From Alistipes senegalensis (GTDB lineage: Bacteria; Pseudomonadota; Gammaproteobacteria; Burkholderiales; Burkholderiaceae_D): a stretch of DNA of 34,013 bases. Of this stretch, positions 18,873 through 33,797 are shown piece by piece. Location of the stretch: NCBI GenBank assembly GCA_023664945.1, contig JAMPER010000001.1:274829-308841 (forward strand), written 5' to 3'. A program made the translations under genes and the position numbers. The first letter of the stretch is position 1, and each line of letters starts with the position of its first letter. The notes beneath the pieces are model-generated. The model was given only the letters and a program-made list of their open reading frames with translations. It had not been told where the DNA came from and made no database searches.

Positions 18873-18915
18873 TTGACCTAGGTCAATAGGACTTTTGCAG
18901 TTTATAACGCATACT
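18873..18915 (+). promoter_or_regulatory. FNR/CRP-family box and -10 element of the oxalyl-CoA decarboxylase promoter
   Basis: TTGACCTAGGTCAA (18873-18886) is a perfect 14-bp palindrome of the TTGAC-N4-GTCAA type bound by FNR/DNR-class regulators. CATACT (18910-18915) begins 30.5 bp after the centre of the box, placing the box at about -41.5, the class II activation position. TATAAC at 18903-18908 is an alternative -10. Similar arrangements precede the oxlT homologue and the CoA-transferase gene. Confidence 0.72.
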
Positions 18916-18966
18916 CAAAAAGCACTCTGCACTTTATCAAACATACAACCGAAAAGGGGAACCCTT

Positions 18967-20673
18967 ATGAGTAACGAGACAGAAGTAGAGTTGGTTGATG
19001 CCTTTTACATGCTGATCGAAACGCTGAAGAACAACGGTATCAAGAATATCTACGGTATTCCTGGTATTCCGATTACGGCGCTTACCCGTTCATGGCAAGC
19101 TGAAGGCGGAAAATATTTTGGCTTCCGTCATGAAACCAATGCCGCTATGGCCGCCGGTGTTTCCGGTTATCTGACCGGTGTACCGGGCGTCTGCATGACC
19201 ACCCCGGCTCCTGGCTTCCTGAACGGTCTGGCTGGCGCAGCCAATGCAACCACCAACGGCTGGCCGATGATTCTGTTGAGCGGTGCAGCAAACCGCCGCA
19301 ATACGGACCTGCAACAAGGCGCTTTCGAAGAAATGGATCAGGTTAACGCTGCACGTCCGCACGTTAAAGCTGCTTACAGCATTAACCACATCGAAGATAT
19401 TCCGATCGCGATTACCCGTGCTGTCCGCACCGCTGTTTCCGGCCGTCCGGGCGCTGTTTATGTCAACCTTTCCCACGAAATGCTGACCGGCTCCCTGTCG
19501 GCAGACAAGGCAAAAGAACTGCTGTTCAAACCGGTTGACGTTACACCGAAGCAACTGCCTGACCCGGCTGCTGTTACCCGTGCTGTTGAAATGCTCAAGA
19601 GCGCCAAGAAACCGCTGGTTCTGCTGGGTAAAGGCGCTGCCTACGCTCAAGCTGACGCCGACATCAAGGCTCTGATTGAAGAAACCGGTATGCCGTTCCT
19701 GCCGATGTCCATGGCTAAAGGCCTTCTGCCTGACAACCATGCACAAAACGCTGGCGCTGTTCGTTCCTTCGTTCTGCCGGAAGCCGATGTTGTTCTCGTT
19801 GTTGGCGCACGTCTGAACTGGCTCCTGGGTAACGGTAAAGGCCGCACCTGGGGCAACCAGCTCAAGAAATTCATCCAGATCGATATCCTGCCGCAGGAAA
19901 TCGACAGCAACGTACCGATCGCAGCACCGCTGGTCGGCGACATCGGTTCCTGTATCGCTGCCCTGCGCAATGGCCTGAAAGGCATGAAAGCTGATGCAGC
20001 ATGGATGAAAGATATCCAGGGACGCGTTGCTGCAAGCCGTGAAAAACTGGCAGGCAAGCTCGCTGTACCGATGGGCGCAAACGGCATGAACTACCAAAAT
20101 TCCGTTGGCGCTATCCGCAACGTCCTGGCCAAATATCCGGAAACCATCCTGGTTAACGAAGGCGCAAACGCTCTGGACAACACCCGTATGATTGTTGACC
20201 AATACCTGCCGCGCAAACGCGTTGACTCCGGTACATGGGGTATCATGGGTATCGGTATGGGCGCTTGTATCGGTGCTGCTGTTTCGACCGGCCAATCCGT
20301 TGTTGCAGTTGAAGGCGACAGTGCTTTCGGCTTCAGCGGCATGGACCTCGAAACCATCGTTCGTTACAAACTGCCGGTATGCGTTTGCATCATGAACAAC
20401 GGCGGTATCTACAAGGGTAACGAAGCCAACGCCGGCGGCTATGATGATCCGTCTCCGACGAGCTTCACGCCTGGCATCCGTTACGACAAGATGATTGAAG
20501 CTTTCGGCGGCAAGGGCTACAACGCTACCACACCGGCAGAAGTTGAAGCTGCTCTGGAAGAAGCCATCAAGTCCAAGCAACCGTGCCTGATCAATGTTGT
20601 TCTGGATCCGGACGCTGGTGTTGAATCTGGCCGTATTTCCAATCTGAACATCGAACGGAAGAAAAAAGCCTAA
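18967..20673 (+). CDS. oxc: Oxalyl-CoA decarboxylase homologue (ThDP enzyme)
   Basis: Oxc decarboxylates oxalyl-CoA to formyl-CoA and CO2 in the cytoplasm, the energy-yielding step of oxalate fermentation. The 568-residue protein has the same length as the characterised O. formigenes enzyme and the same three-domain ThDP layout. Visible residues: Glu56 in FRHE (cofactor activation), [15 protein letters not shown] ThDP/Mg motif ([16 protein letters not shown]), [11 protein letters not shown], and the closing loop PDAGVESGR. At residue 120 it has Phe (QQGAFEE), where, as I recall it, the O. formigenes enzyme has catalytic-site Tyr120 (GDYEE); 2-hydroxyacyl-CoA lyases also have Phe there. The insert after GNEA also differs. 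Codon use is strongly biased, as in highly expressed genes. AGGGGA precedes the ATG at 18967. It is probably a true Oxc or a close paralogue; a related 2-hydroxyacyl-CoA lyase activity cannot be excluded. Confidence 0.9.
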
Positions 20674-20727
20674 TAACTGAAAAGCATTATCCGGCTTTGC
20701 CGGAACGCTTGAAGGTTTAAAGCATGC

Positions 20728-20760
20728 GCCTCCCGGACTTTTTGTCCGGGAGGCTTTTTT
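20728..20760 (+). terminator. Rho-independent terminator after oxc
   Basis: Perfect 11-bp stem GCCTCCCGGAC / GTCCGGGAGGC (20728-20738 and 20744-20754), loop of five T, then a T tract. A small hairpin CCGGC-TTT-GCCGG (20691-20703) lies between it and the stop codon. Confidence 0.95.
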
Positions 20761-21791
20761 TATGCCGTTTTTTTATTGTTCGGATAGCGGGATTGAAAGT
20801 GTGCAGGGCTTTCCGCTTGGGGAGACCAGGGGGAAGAAGCAAGCCTGCTATTCGGGGTGGAAGATTGGGTAGCCATCTTTTTGCTGTATTTTTTCCCGTA
20901 TGAAAGGAGAAGGACAGCTTTTGAACCCGGGAGAGATAAACAAAAGCAAAATGCGCGATAAATGGCGGGAAGAAACGGGAAAGGCGACGCAAAATGAAAC
21001 AGGTTTACAAAAGCCTTGCCGCCAGTACAAAGTAACATTTGCCTTAAACAGCCATCATCGGCTATCCGAAAGTCATGCTGTTATGATTCAACTCCGCTAT
21101 ATCAGGGGGATAAAGATAGGGCGGACTTGCCTGACGGCCAGTTTGTATTCTTTTGCCAGGCGGGCAACGGTCATTCCGCTGTTGTTTTGTTCAATTATTT
21201 TGTTGTTTGTGCATTGTCCTCATGGCATCTGCACAGCGCGGCATATCCACGGTTTCGCCCTTGTCGCCGGATAAACTGAAGCGTGGTTTCCCTGCCCATT
21301 TCAGAAGATAACCGTTGCACTATGCAGGCACTGGAAAATGCTGCCCATTGGGAGCGCGGCCGTATGGTCGTTTTTCTATGCACGGTGAAATGGGGTATTG
21401 CAGGCAGGCATGAAATGGTGAGTCAATTATCGCAATGCTTTTTATATCGCATCATGCGTTTTGCCATCAGTAAGATTTGGTCGCAATAGAGGATAAGAGT
21501 GCTGCTCTCTGTTTGGTTCTCTTGATGTCTTGGCTTGCTGTACGGTGAGCCGGTTTTTGATGGCTGCCGGTGATGGCGCCAGGCAGATGCCGGTAATGGA
21601 GTTTTTTTTCTTTGTGTCGCTTGTTTGAGAGGAGGAATGGTGCGCAGGTGTATTTTCAGCGTTTTTTGCTTTTGTCCTTTGGCGGGGTAAGCGGGAAAAA
21701 TGCGGCAAGATTGGCCGGGGATGACAGGTTGGCAGTTATTGGCTTCGGCTTTTCCTGCCGGTGGCAAGGGGCGGGCGACTCTTTTTTGTTG
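20761..21791. other. Gene-free region of about 1 kb with decayed coding traces
   Basis: No intact gene is supported. Around 21110-21220 the minus strand reads a helix-turn-helix-like stretch (MTVARLAKEYKLAVRQV), with neighbouring frames broken, suggesting a dead DNA-binding gene. 21314-21533 is one copy of a repeat found inverted at 32186-32402. The remainder shows no promoter, RNA or coding signal that I can support. Confidence 0.5.
21314..21533 (-). repeat. 220-bp dispersed repeat, copy A
   Basis: Read on the minus strand, this segment aligns with 32186-32402 on the plus strand. The longest shared blocks are TTGCGATAATTGACTCACC and ATTTCACCGTGCATAGAAA, with further matches at both ends (CCAAGACA and GTGCAAC). 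Short indels separate the blocks. The copies are inverted relative to each other. The nature of the element is unknown; no transposase is recognisable. Confidence 0.75.
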
Positions 21792-33056: not shown

Positions 33057-33704
33057 TCAGATTTTTCCCTGGTTTTTCAGGCGGCTTAAGGTTTCCGGCG
33101 AAAGGTTCAGGTAGGAAGCCAGTTCTTTTTTCGGCATCCGGTCAAACAGATCAGGATATTTGCGCAGGAAACGGTGCACCCGTCCCGGGGCATCCAGAAG
33201 ATGCAGGGTAATGGTGTGCGACATGATGCTGCTCATGATGCGCATAACTTCCAGTTCGAAAAGTTCCTTGAGCCTGGGGCGGCTGGAAATATAGTCATAC
33301 CATGAGGGCATGGCAATGCGGGCAACCCGCGCCTTGGTGACGGCGATGATGCTGAATGAAGCCGCCTTGTTCAGCCGCCATGAGGCGTAGGTGGCTTCCA
33401 TATAGCGCTCGCTGGTAAAACGCAGGATCATTTCTTTTGCATGCTGGTTGGCAACCGCCCTTTTCAGGATGCCGTCCAGGACAAATATGACGTCCAGATC
33501 CCTGTCGCCCTGGTGTGTCAGGCATTCGCCTTTTCCGTGATCGGAAACATCAAGGTGAGGCTCCAGTTCCATGAGTTCCGGCTGGGTCAGTTCTTTGAGG
33601 AGGCAGTTTTGGGAGAGCTGTACCCGAATGATGTTTTTTTCGGGATGGTTTGCGATTAATGCCATGAAATTCAATTTGGGTTTTGATGCAACAGGACGAA
33701 GCAT
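33057..33704 (-). CDS. Crp/Fnr-family transcriptional regulator, candidate regulator of oxalate genes
   Basis: A 215-residue regulator with an N-terminal cyclic-nucleotide-binding-like beta roll (about residues 30-130, including GECLTHQGDRDLDVIFVLDG), a long dimerisation helix (LKELFELEVMRIMSSIMSH) and a C-terminal helix-turn-helix (MPKKELASYLNLSPETLSRL). The recognition helix has E204-x-x-S207-R208, the FNR pattern that reads TTGAT/TTGAC half-sites, not the CRP pattern. Only Cys34 and Cys61 are present, so an FNR 4Fe-4S cluster is unlikely and the ligand is unknown. The protein ends right after the recognition helix, lacking the usual wing. The start is ATG 33704; ATG 33665 is an alternative, and neither has a good Shine-Dalgarno. 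It is divergent from the CoA-transferase gene, with two FNR-type boxes between. Confidence 0.88.
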   Translation of the reverse strand: MLRPVASKPKLNFMALIANHPEKNIIRVQLSQNCLLKELTQPELMELEPHLDVSDHGKGECLTHQGDRDLDVIFVLDGILKRAVANQHAKEMILRFTSERYMEATYASWRLNKAASFSIIAVTKARVARIAMPSWYDYISSRPRLKELFELEVMRIMSSIMSHTITLHLLDAPGRVHRFLRKYPDLFDRMPKKELASYLNLSPETLSRLKNQGKI

Positions 33705-33714
33705 GTCAAAAAAA

Positions 33715-33728
33715 TTGATAAATATCAA
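33715..33728. promoter_or_regulatory. Perfect FNR-consensus box upstream of the Crp/Fnr gene
   Basis: TTGATAAATATCAA fits TTGAT-N4-ATCAA exactly. It lies 10 bp upstream of the regulator's ATG (33704), a position suited to autorepression. Relative to the CoA-transferase promoter it sits about 40 bp upstream of the other box, near -81.5. Confidence 0.7.
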
Positions 33729-33754
33729 GATCAGGCTGAATCTAAATAGAGAAA

Positions 33755-33797
33755 TTGACCTGAATCAAGCATATATCCTGAAAATAGGGGATATGAT
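33755..33797 (+). promoter_or_regulatory. FNR-type box and -10 element of the CoA-transferase promoter
   Basis: TTGACCTGAATCAA (33755-33768) combines the TTGAC half-site of the oxc box with the ATCAA half-site of classical FNR sites. TATGAT (33792-33797) begins 30.5 bp after the box centre, again placing the box near -41.5. The gene starts about 170 bp further on. Confidence 0.68.

Follow-up and report, generated by a model that had tools for sequence, protein, structure and literature searches.

In class II promoters of the Crp/Fnr superfamily, the activator site lies about 41.5 bp upstream of the transcription start and 29.5-30.5 bp before the -10 element. Members with an E-x-x-S-R recognition helix are associated with TTGA half-sites, differing in this from CRP, whose half-site is TGTGA, and in the usual layout of the family the recognition helix is followed by a wing. 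Interest in the gut bacterium Oxalobacter stems from the role of oxalate in the formation of calcium oxalate kidney stones. A search of a limited literature collection turned up no account of a regulator for the oxalate pathway in this genus, whether of the Crp/Fnr type or any other; PMC9812493 mentions frc redundancy and has no match to 'regulat' or 'promoter', and the passages considered of a proteome study (PMC4764995) have none to 'crp' or 'promoter'. Here we describe a window of 34,013 nucleotides (G000:C8:274829-308841), from a genome of 1.93 Mb in 16 contigs, in which genes for an oxalyl-CoA decarboxylase (oxc), an oxalate/formate antiporter (oxlT) and a CoA-transferase (frc2) are each preceded by a dyad of the TTGA type (referred to below as a box), and in which a Crp/Fnr-family gene is divergent from the CoA-transferase gene. 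From sequence comparison we consider it likely that the product of this gene (33057-33665) is a Crp/Fnr-family activator dedicated to oxalate catabolism, the dimer of which would bind the boxes and act in class II fashion at oxc, oxlT and frc2. The features on which this proposal turns are as follows.

18873..18886, unstranded: oxc box TTGACCTAGGTCAA, a perfect palindrome, predicted operator at about -41.5
18910..18915, + strand: predicted oxc -10 CATACT, 30.5 bp from the box centre
18967..20673, + strand: oxc, oxalyl-CoA decarboxylase (TIGR03254, 783.3 bits, cut-off 739.4)
29846..29859, unstranded: oxlT box TTGACCAAGGTCAT, one mismatch to TTGA-N6-TCAA
29882..29887, + strand: predicted oxlT -10 CACAAT, 29.5 bp from the box centre
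30015..31304, + strand: oxlT, oxalate/formate antiporter (TIGR04259, 552.6 bits, cut-off 335)
33057..33665, - strand: Crp/Fnr-family regulator, 202 amino acids, ATG at 33665
33715-33728, unstranded: regulator-proximal box TTGATAAATATCAA, a perfect site
33755..33768, unstranded: CoA-transferase box TTGACCTGAATCAA, with a box here in 9/9 genomes of the genus where the regulator was found
33792..33797, + strand: predicted CoA-transferase -10 TATGAT, 30.5 bp from the box centre
33975..34013, + strand: frc2, second formyl-CoA-transferase gene (YfdW-like), first 13 codons, with a 100-N scaffold gap after the window end

The boxes before oxc, oxlT and the CoA-transferase gene had been proposed in an initial annotation of the window, as had their spacing of 29.5-30.5 bp to a -10 element; both are present in the sequence, the distance being taken from the box centre to the first base of the -10 candidate. 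The same annotation had noticed no comparable site before the other genes, and here it had overlooked the perfect site before the regulator, which shares an intergenic region with the CoA-transferase box and lies 40 bp from it. A reading of the TTGAC of a box as a -35 element was rejected, the left half being about 31 bp from the -10 and not 17.

For comparison within the genus we used 13 genomes, including those of O. formigenes HC-1 (G001) and O. paraformigenes HOxBLS (G004). The region upstream of oxc was readable in 12 of the 13, and in all 12 the ATG is preceded by a perfect box at -93 to -99. When 11 of these regions were aligned (G002, near-identical to the genome of the window, was dropped), the box was the longest invariant block, with CATA(C/A)T downstream of it; in 12/12 the box centre is followed, at 29.5 or 30.5 bp, by a CATACT or CATAAT hexamer. 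Of 18 upstream regions examined for the closest oxlT copies of the genus, 13 have a TTGAC-type box, 12 of these ending in TCAT and one in TCAA, and each of the 13 has CACAAT or CAAAAT at 29.5 or 30.5 (12 of them at 29.5). The second oxlT copies of G001 and G004 have a weaker site only, and no box was found upstream of the three partial copies that G005 and G007 hold between them. At frc2, TATGAT is at 30.5 in 8/8 promoters. The intergenic region between regulator and CoA-transferase holds two boxes 38-40 bp apart in 8/9 of the regulator-holding genomes of the genus, a perfect box at the position of 33715 likewise being found in 8/9. Because of the 29.5/30.5 spacing on the target side, and by analogy with known Crp/Fnr promoters, we predict class II activation.

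The oxc promoters of HC-1 and HOxBLS (L039 and L040) contain four perfect TTGA-N6-TCAA boxes at an exact pitch of 24 bp, and a fifth site, with one mismatch, closer to the gene. A 24-bp pitch would leave room for dimers side by side.

The linkage extends beyond the genus. We collected 74 named loci containing the regulator (from Oxalobacter, Collimonas, Herbaspirillum, Rhodoferax, Polaromonas, Caenimonas, Curvibacter, Hylemonella, Methylibium, Variovorax and others), each with as much as 10 kb of flanking sequence. At 73 of the 74, these flanks hold an oxc-, frc- or oxlT-like gene, although some of the matches counted as 'oxc' are thiamine pyrophosphate (TPP) enzymes with an identity of about 25-26%. 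Two loci were cut at the start of the regulator, leaving 72 with a readable upstream region; in 72/72 a TTGA-N6-TCAA site lies no more than 350 bp upstream of the regulator, and in 56 it has the strict form TTGACC-NN-GGTCAA, although the 72 cannot be counted as independent events because the loci are related and many come from Variovorax. A search of 392 genomes of the family, from which the best 30 loci were taken, gave a box in 22/22 loci outside the genus, these partly repeating organisms of the 74-locus set. Two of the findings that the initial annotation had named as refuting its proposal, absence of the boxes from orthologues and equal frequency at unrelated genes, were looked for and did not occur: the oxc, oxlT and regulator/CoA-transferase promoters keep their boxes, and the density of TTGA-N6-TCAA elsewhere in the regulator loci is 0.064 per kb.

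Outside Oxalobacter, a box stands before an oxlT-like gene in L204 and L205. A Variovorax locus (L221) has a second strict box, at 14756, before an operon with TctC-like and TctB transporter genes, which suggests a tripartite transporter that may serve oxalate uptake; strict sites at a distance like that in L221 occur in 22 further loci.

Counts of TTGAC-N4-GTCAA over whole genomes, in which the gene context was read for part of the sites, place 5 of 7 sites in HC-1 and 6 of 8 in HOxBLS at oxc, regulator/frc2 or TPP/frc2 promoters, the reversed pattern occurring 3 and 2 times, respectively. In the genome of the window, 2 of 4 sites are at oxc or frc2. Sites at oxc or oxlT account for 2/6 in G005, 1/14 in G006 and 3/6 in G007, with the context read for a minority of the others, and G012 has 2 sites vs 4 of the reversed pattern. 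In G006 (L299, 1546-1601), three copies of TTGACAAGGGTCAA are arrayed as short direct repeats, and no oxalate gene was recognised nearby.

As noted in the initial annotation, the regulator carries an E-x-x-S-R recognition helix, in the form ETLSR, and residues E191, T192, L193, S194 and R195 are invariant in 30 regulator sequences. We take ATG 33665 as the start because relatives also begin there, and because a longer form from TTG 33728 would overlap the box at 33715. The chain ends ...ETLSRLKNQGKI, the recognition helix being its C-terminal end, and the protein has no residues for a wing. Its match to PF00027 (cNMP-binding-like; E 2e-4, 21.7 bits) is below the curated cut-off of 27.5, and that of the orthologue in G010 (28.0 bits) is above it. 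The four cysteines that hold the 4Fe-4S cluster in the oxygen-sensing FNR/ANR type were not found, the protein of the window having only C21 and C48; C21 is invariant in 8 sequences of the genus and C48 is not, and neither is invariant among the 30. The score against the CRP equivalog NF008732 was 21.9 bits, compared with a cut-off of 266. Against solved structures, the regulator profile matched 3dn7 best (E 7.4e-10, the alignment reaching residue 190 of its 194) and CRP structures with E values between about 2.5e-5 and 5.5e-3 (for the most part across residues 33-174). The match to 3dkw, a structure of DNR, was weak (E 0.0015); DNR/NNR proteins sense haem and nitric oxide and control denitrification genes.

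The regulator was found in 9 of the 13 genomes of the genus (in two pieces in G011) and in 76 of the 392 family genomes at E <1e-78; at 1e-5 the number was 98, the remaining 22 being weak matches. It was not found in G002, which has a 100-N gap near the expected place. A plasmid-borne form was rejected, since a search of the plasmid collection at 1e-20 gave no match. Also rejected was a third Crp/Fnr protein in the genome of the window: the weak match at 195434 (E 0.028) overlaps another open reading frame, the product of which presumably resembles a D-alanyl-D-alanine carboxypeptidase.

Several results weigh against a dedicated activator, and we set them out here with the alternatives on which they bear. 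One alternative is that the boxes are chance matches to a short dyad. Three perfect TTGA-N6-TCAA sites in the window, compared with 0.77 expected, are reached in 11 of 200 Markov simulations, and no excess is seen when one mismatch is tolerated (14 sites vs 15.5 expected). The excess within the window alone is therefore borderline and insufficient by itself, although the form TTGAC-N4-GTCAA occurs once vs 0.03 expected and the whole genome has 26 TTGA-N6-TCAA sites vs 12 of the reversed pattern. The case for the boxes is made instead by their conservation at the 12 readable oxc promoters and the 72 readable regulator loci, set against the low density elsewhere, and it leaves chance a negligible probability.

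A second point concerns the promoter geometry, which is found with conserved -10 candidates predicted from the sequence. At oxc, the mean -10 score is marginally better at an offset of 23.5 (2.48) than at 30.5 (2.45), because TATAAC is present there in 5 of the 12 genomes; this hexamer is nearer to the TATAAT consensus and is a rival oxc -10, but it is not conserved in the other 7. Beyond the genus, scoring of 64 loci on the oxc/frc side (nearly all from outside Oxalobacter, L195 being from Oxalobacter sp.) gave the best mean offset at 30.5, narrowly (2.33, the next being 2.22 and 2.21, of 4.8), and on the regulator side, scored in 62 loci, the class II distance showed no -10 peak. These distributions bear on the idea that the linked regulator is a repressor or a mere autoregulator, with oxalate relieving its hold on the boxes. 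The single box that lies between the divergent genes in most loci outside Oxalobacter could serve the gene on either side. Nevertheless, a spacing of 29.5/30.5 towards oxc/frc, unmatched towards the regulator, is the geometry of class II activation, and repressor operators need none, which makes repression or autoregulation alone improbable. We infer that the regulator is the protein that binds the boxes, that it acts as an activator and not as a repressor, and that it responds to oxalate or to one of the products of oxalate metabolism.

The control loci carry a third point. From 29 plasmid records with oxc we fetched 12, of about 11.7 kb each; none of the 12 control loci has the regulator, and TTGAC-N4-GTCAA was found in 0/12. 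The contrast is blurred by the generic TTGA-N6-TCAA, which occurs in 2 of the 12, in each case with one site shortly before frc, namely in Acetobacter pomorum (L283; sites 3451 and 8679, TTGATATGAATCAA before frc) and in Cetobacterium (L285; site 3596, TTGATTATTTTCAA before frc).

A further difficulty is that the genome of the window encodes an FNR-like paralogue (C8:1218810-1219703; L019/L122) with the same E-x-x-S-R motif. This protein might be the main reader of the boxes, in which case the oxalate genes would belong to a general regulon of the FNR/ANR type and the linked regulator would be secondary. In keeping with such a role, two TTGA-N6-TCAA sites lie upstream of the gene of the paralogue itself, and TTGAT-N4-ATCAA sites occur elsewhere in the genome, one of them before a gene that we take to resemble an anaerobic ribonucleotide reductase. 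On the other hand, the paralogue was not found in G009 or G010 (76 and 87% complete), both of which have boxes, nor in G005-G007; it keeps, judging by a match of the positions made by eye, only two of the four FNR cluster cysteines; and over many genera TTGACC-NN-GGTCAA follows the linked regulator. Taken together, this makes control mainly by the paralogue quite improbable. The paralogues of seven genomes are similar in their cysteine loss, three of them having one extra cysteine elsewhere.

Also weighing against the dedicated activator are three genomes of the genus, G005, G006 and G007 (91, 87 and 99% complete), in which oxc has a perfect box but neither the regulator, nor the paralogue, nor any PF00027 protein was found; each also has a boxed oxlT copy, and the assembled oxlT locus of G005 lacks the regulator. 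Another, unrecognised protein might read the same boxes in these genomes, so that box conservation would not be due to this regulator alone. The three assemblies are, however, at contig level with breaks at oxlT or frc2, so that the regulator may have been lost from the assembly on a small contig, and the absence of a TPP/frc2 box in G005 and G007 would fit a recent loss of the regulator with a shrinking regulon. We regard such a second reader as somewhat unlikely.

The last difficulty is posed by the CoA-transferase. The genus holds two types of formyl-CoA-transferase, and one example of each exceeds the TIGR03253 cut-off of 504.2: the HC-1 relative of the window frc2, with 520.9 bits, and the classical frc of the window's own genome (C8:901267-902448), with 687.1 bits. 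The typing of PF02515 proteins excluded six entries that are second gene pieces (L111, L112, L113, L117, L119 and L120) and assigned four short pieces (L103, L115, L116 and L118) from their first residues. Because the gene in the window is cut after 13 codons, its identity rests on its relatives, and the nearest solved structure to frc2 is E. coli YfdW. The possibility that it is the classical frc was rejected, since the classical gene of this genome lies at the separate locus just given, where it is 69% identical to that of HC-1 and unboxed. No box was found within 420 bp upstream of the classical type in any of 8 loci, HC-1 included. Among 16 frc2 loci, 10 have a box within this distance; two further loci have one about 430-450 bp upstream, and in two more (HC-1 and HOxBLS) frc2 is the second gene behind a TPP-enzyme gene, the promoter of which is boxed. 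No box was found at the frc2 loci of G005 and G007. The initial annotation had proposed that one regulator coordinates uptake, activation and decarboxylation of oxalate. The linkage of regulator, box and oxc, frc or oxlT across genera supports this, with the qualifications that the classical frc is unboxed (0/8) and that no Crp/Fnr protein was found alongside the boxes of G005-G007.

With these results weighed, a dedicated activator is the reading that we prefer. A dimer of the regulator would bind TTGACC-NN-GGTCAA (core TTGA-N6-TCAA) at about -41.5 at oxc, oxlT and frc2 and would act there in class II fashion by recruiting RNA polymerase; oxalate uptake, the transfer of CoA and decarboxylation would thereby be switched together. 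The box at 33715 may serve autoregulation, or may be a synergistic second site, 40 bp further upstream, that acts with the box at 33755. Our guess is that the ligand is oxalate or a CoA ester. More tentatively still, the regulator may represent a distinct Crp/Fnr subfamily with a chain-terminal recognition helix that senses oxalate or an oxalate-derived CoA ester and is an ancestral switch of betaproteobacterial oxalotrophy, the row of four dimers forming an exceptionally strong cooperative oxc promoter in O. formigenes and O. paraformigenes; we consider this broader picture less likely than not.

The surroundings of these genes provided some further observations. The genome of the window has a second frc2 copy with TTGACTTGAGTCAA and TATGAT, spaced as in the frc2 of the window. 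Both copies are interrupted by 100-N gaps (at 34013 in the window and at 1935-2034 of L011), which are probably collapsed repeats. The TPP enzyme paired with frc2 in HC-1 and HOxBLS (L045 and L046) is 25-28% identical to Oxc, and an Oxc-like TPP enzyme adjoins the regulator in L171, L182 and L187; among its 25 best NCBIfam matches, the HC-1 protein exceeded no cut-off. Directly before oxlT, at 29286-29813 of the window, is a gene for a protein like fluoroacetyl-CoA thioesterase (FlK), and upstream of it are genes that resemble pyruvate kinase (judged by eye) and hydroxypyruvate isomerase. A similar short open reading frame stands before oxlT in G005. The oxlT homologue of G010 (L071) contains a single in-frame TGA.

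The regulator gene and its matching sites occur together at oxalate genes of many gut and soil bacteria, and this pattern in the sequences points to a likely switch for oxalate use among relatives of Oxalobacter. A candidate regulator, an exact predicted operator, predicted promoters and target genes are now on hand, testable in tractable relatives such as Variovorax, and they may provide a basis for an oxalate sensor.

How does this system compare with those already described? In Alphaproteobacteria (Skermanella, Azospirillum and Paracoccus), a regulator gene is likewise linked to oxc, but it encodes a GntR protein, of an unrelated family, and those loci have no TTGAC-N4-GTCAA box; on the plasmids concerned (L279, L280 and L284), oxc comes after the GntR gene, an alternative solution to linkage. 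CRP belongs to the same superfamily as the regulator, which nonetheless scores far below the CRP cut-off of NCBIfam. The 3dn7 protein, which we take to be a Cytophaga-type Crp/Fnr protein, is the best match among solved structures but is remote in sequence. With the FNR/ANR/DNR/FixK branch, the regulator shares the TTGA-N6-TCAA dyad, the E-x-x-S-R helix and the class II spacing, whereas it differs in lacking the four cluster cysteines, in ending after the recognition helix, in the CC/GG flanks of its dyad and in its linkage to oxalate genes. Sequence comparison supports the view that it adds a new, substrate-linked member to the Crp/Fnr superfamily, one that is conserved in many Burkholderiales and has a predicted operator that is well defined.

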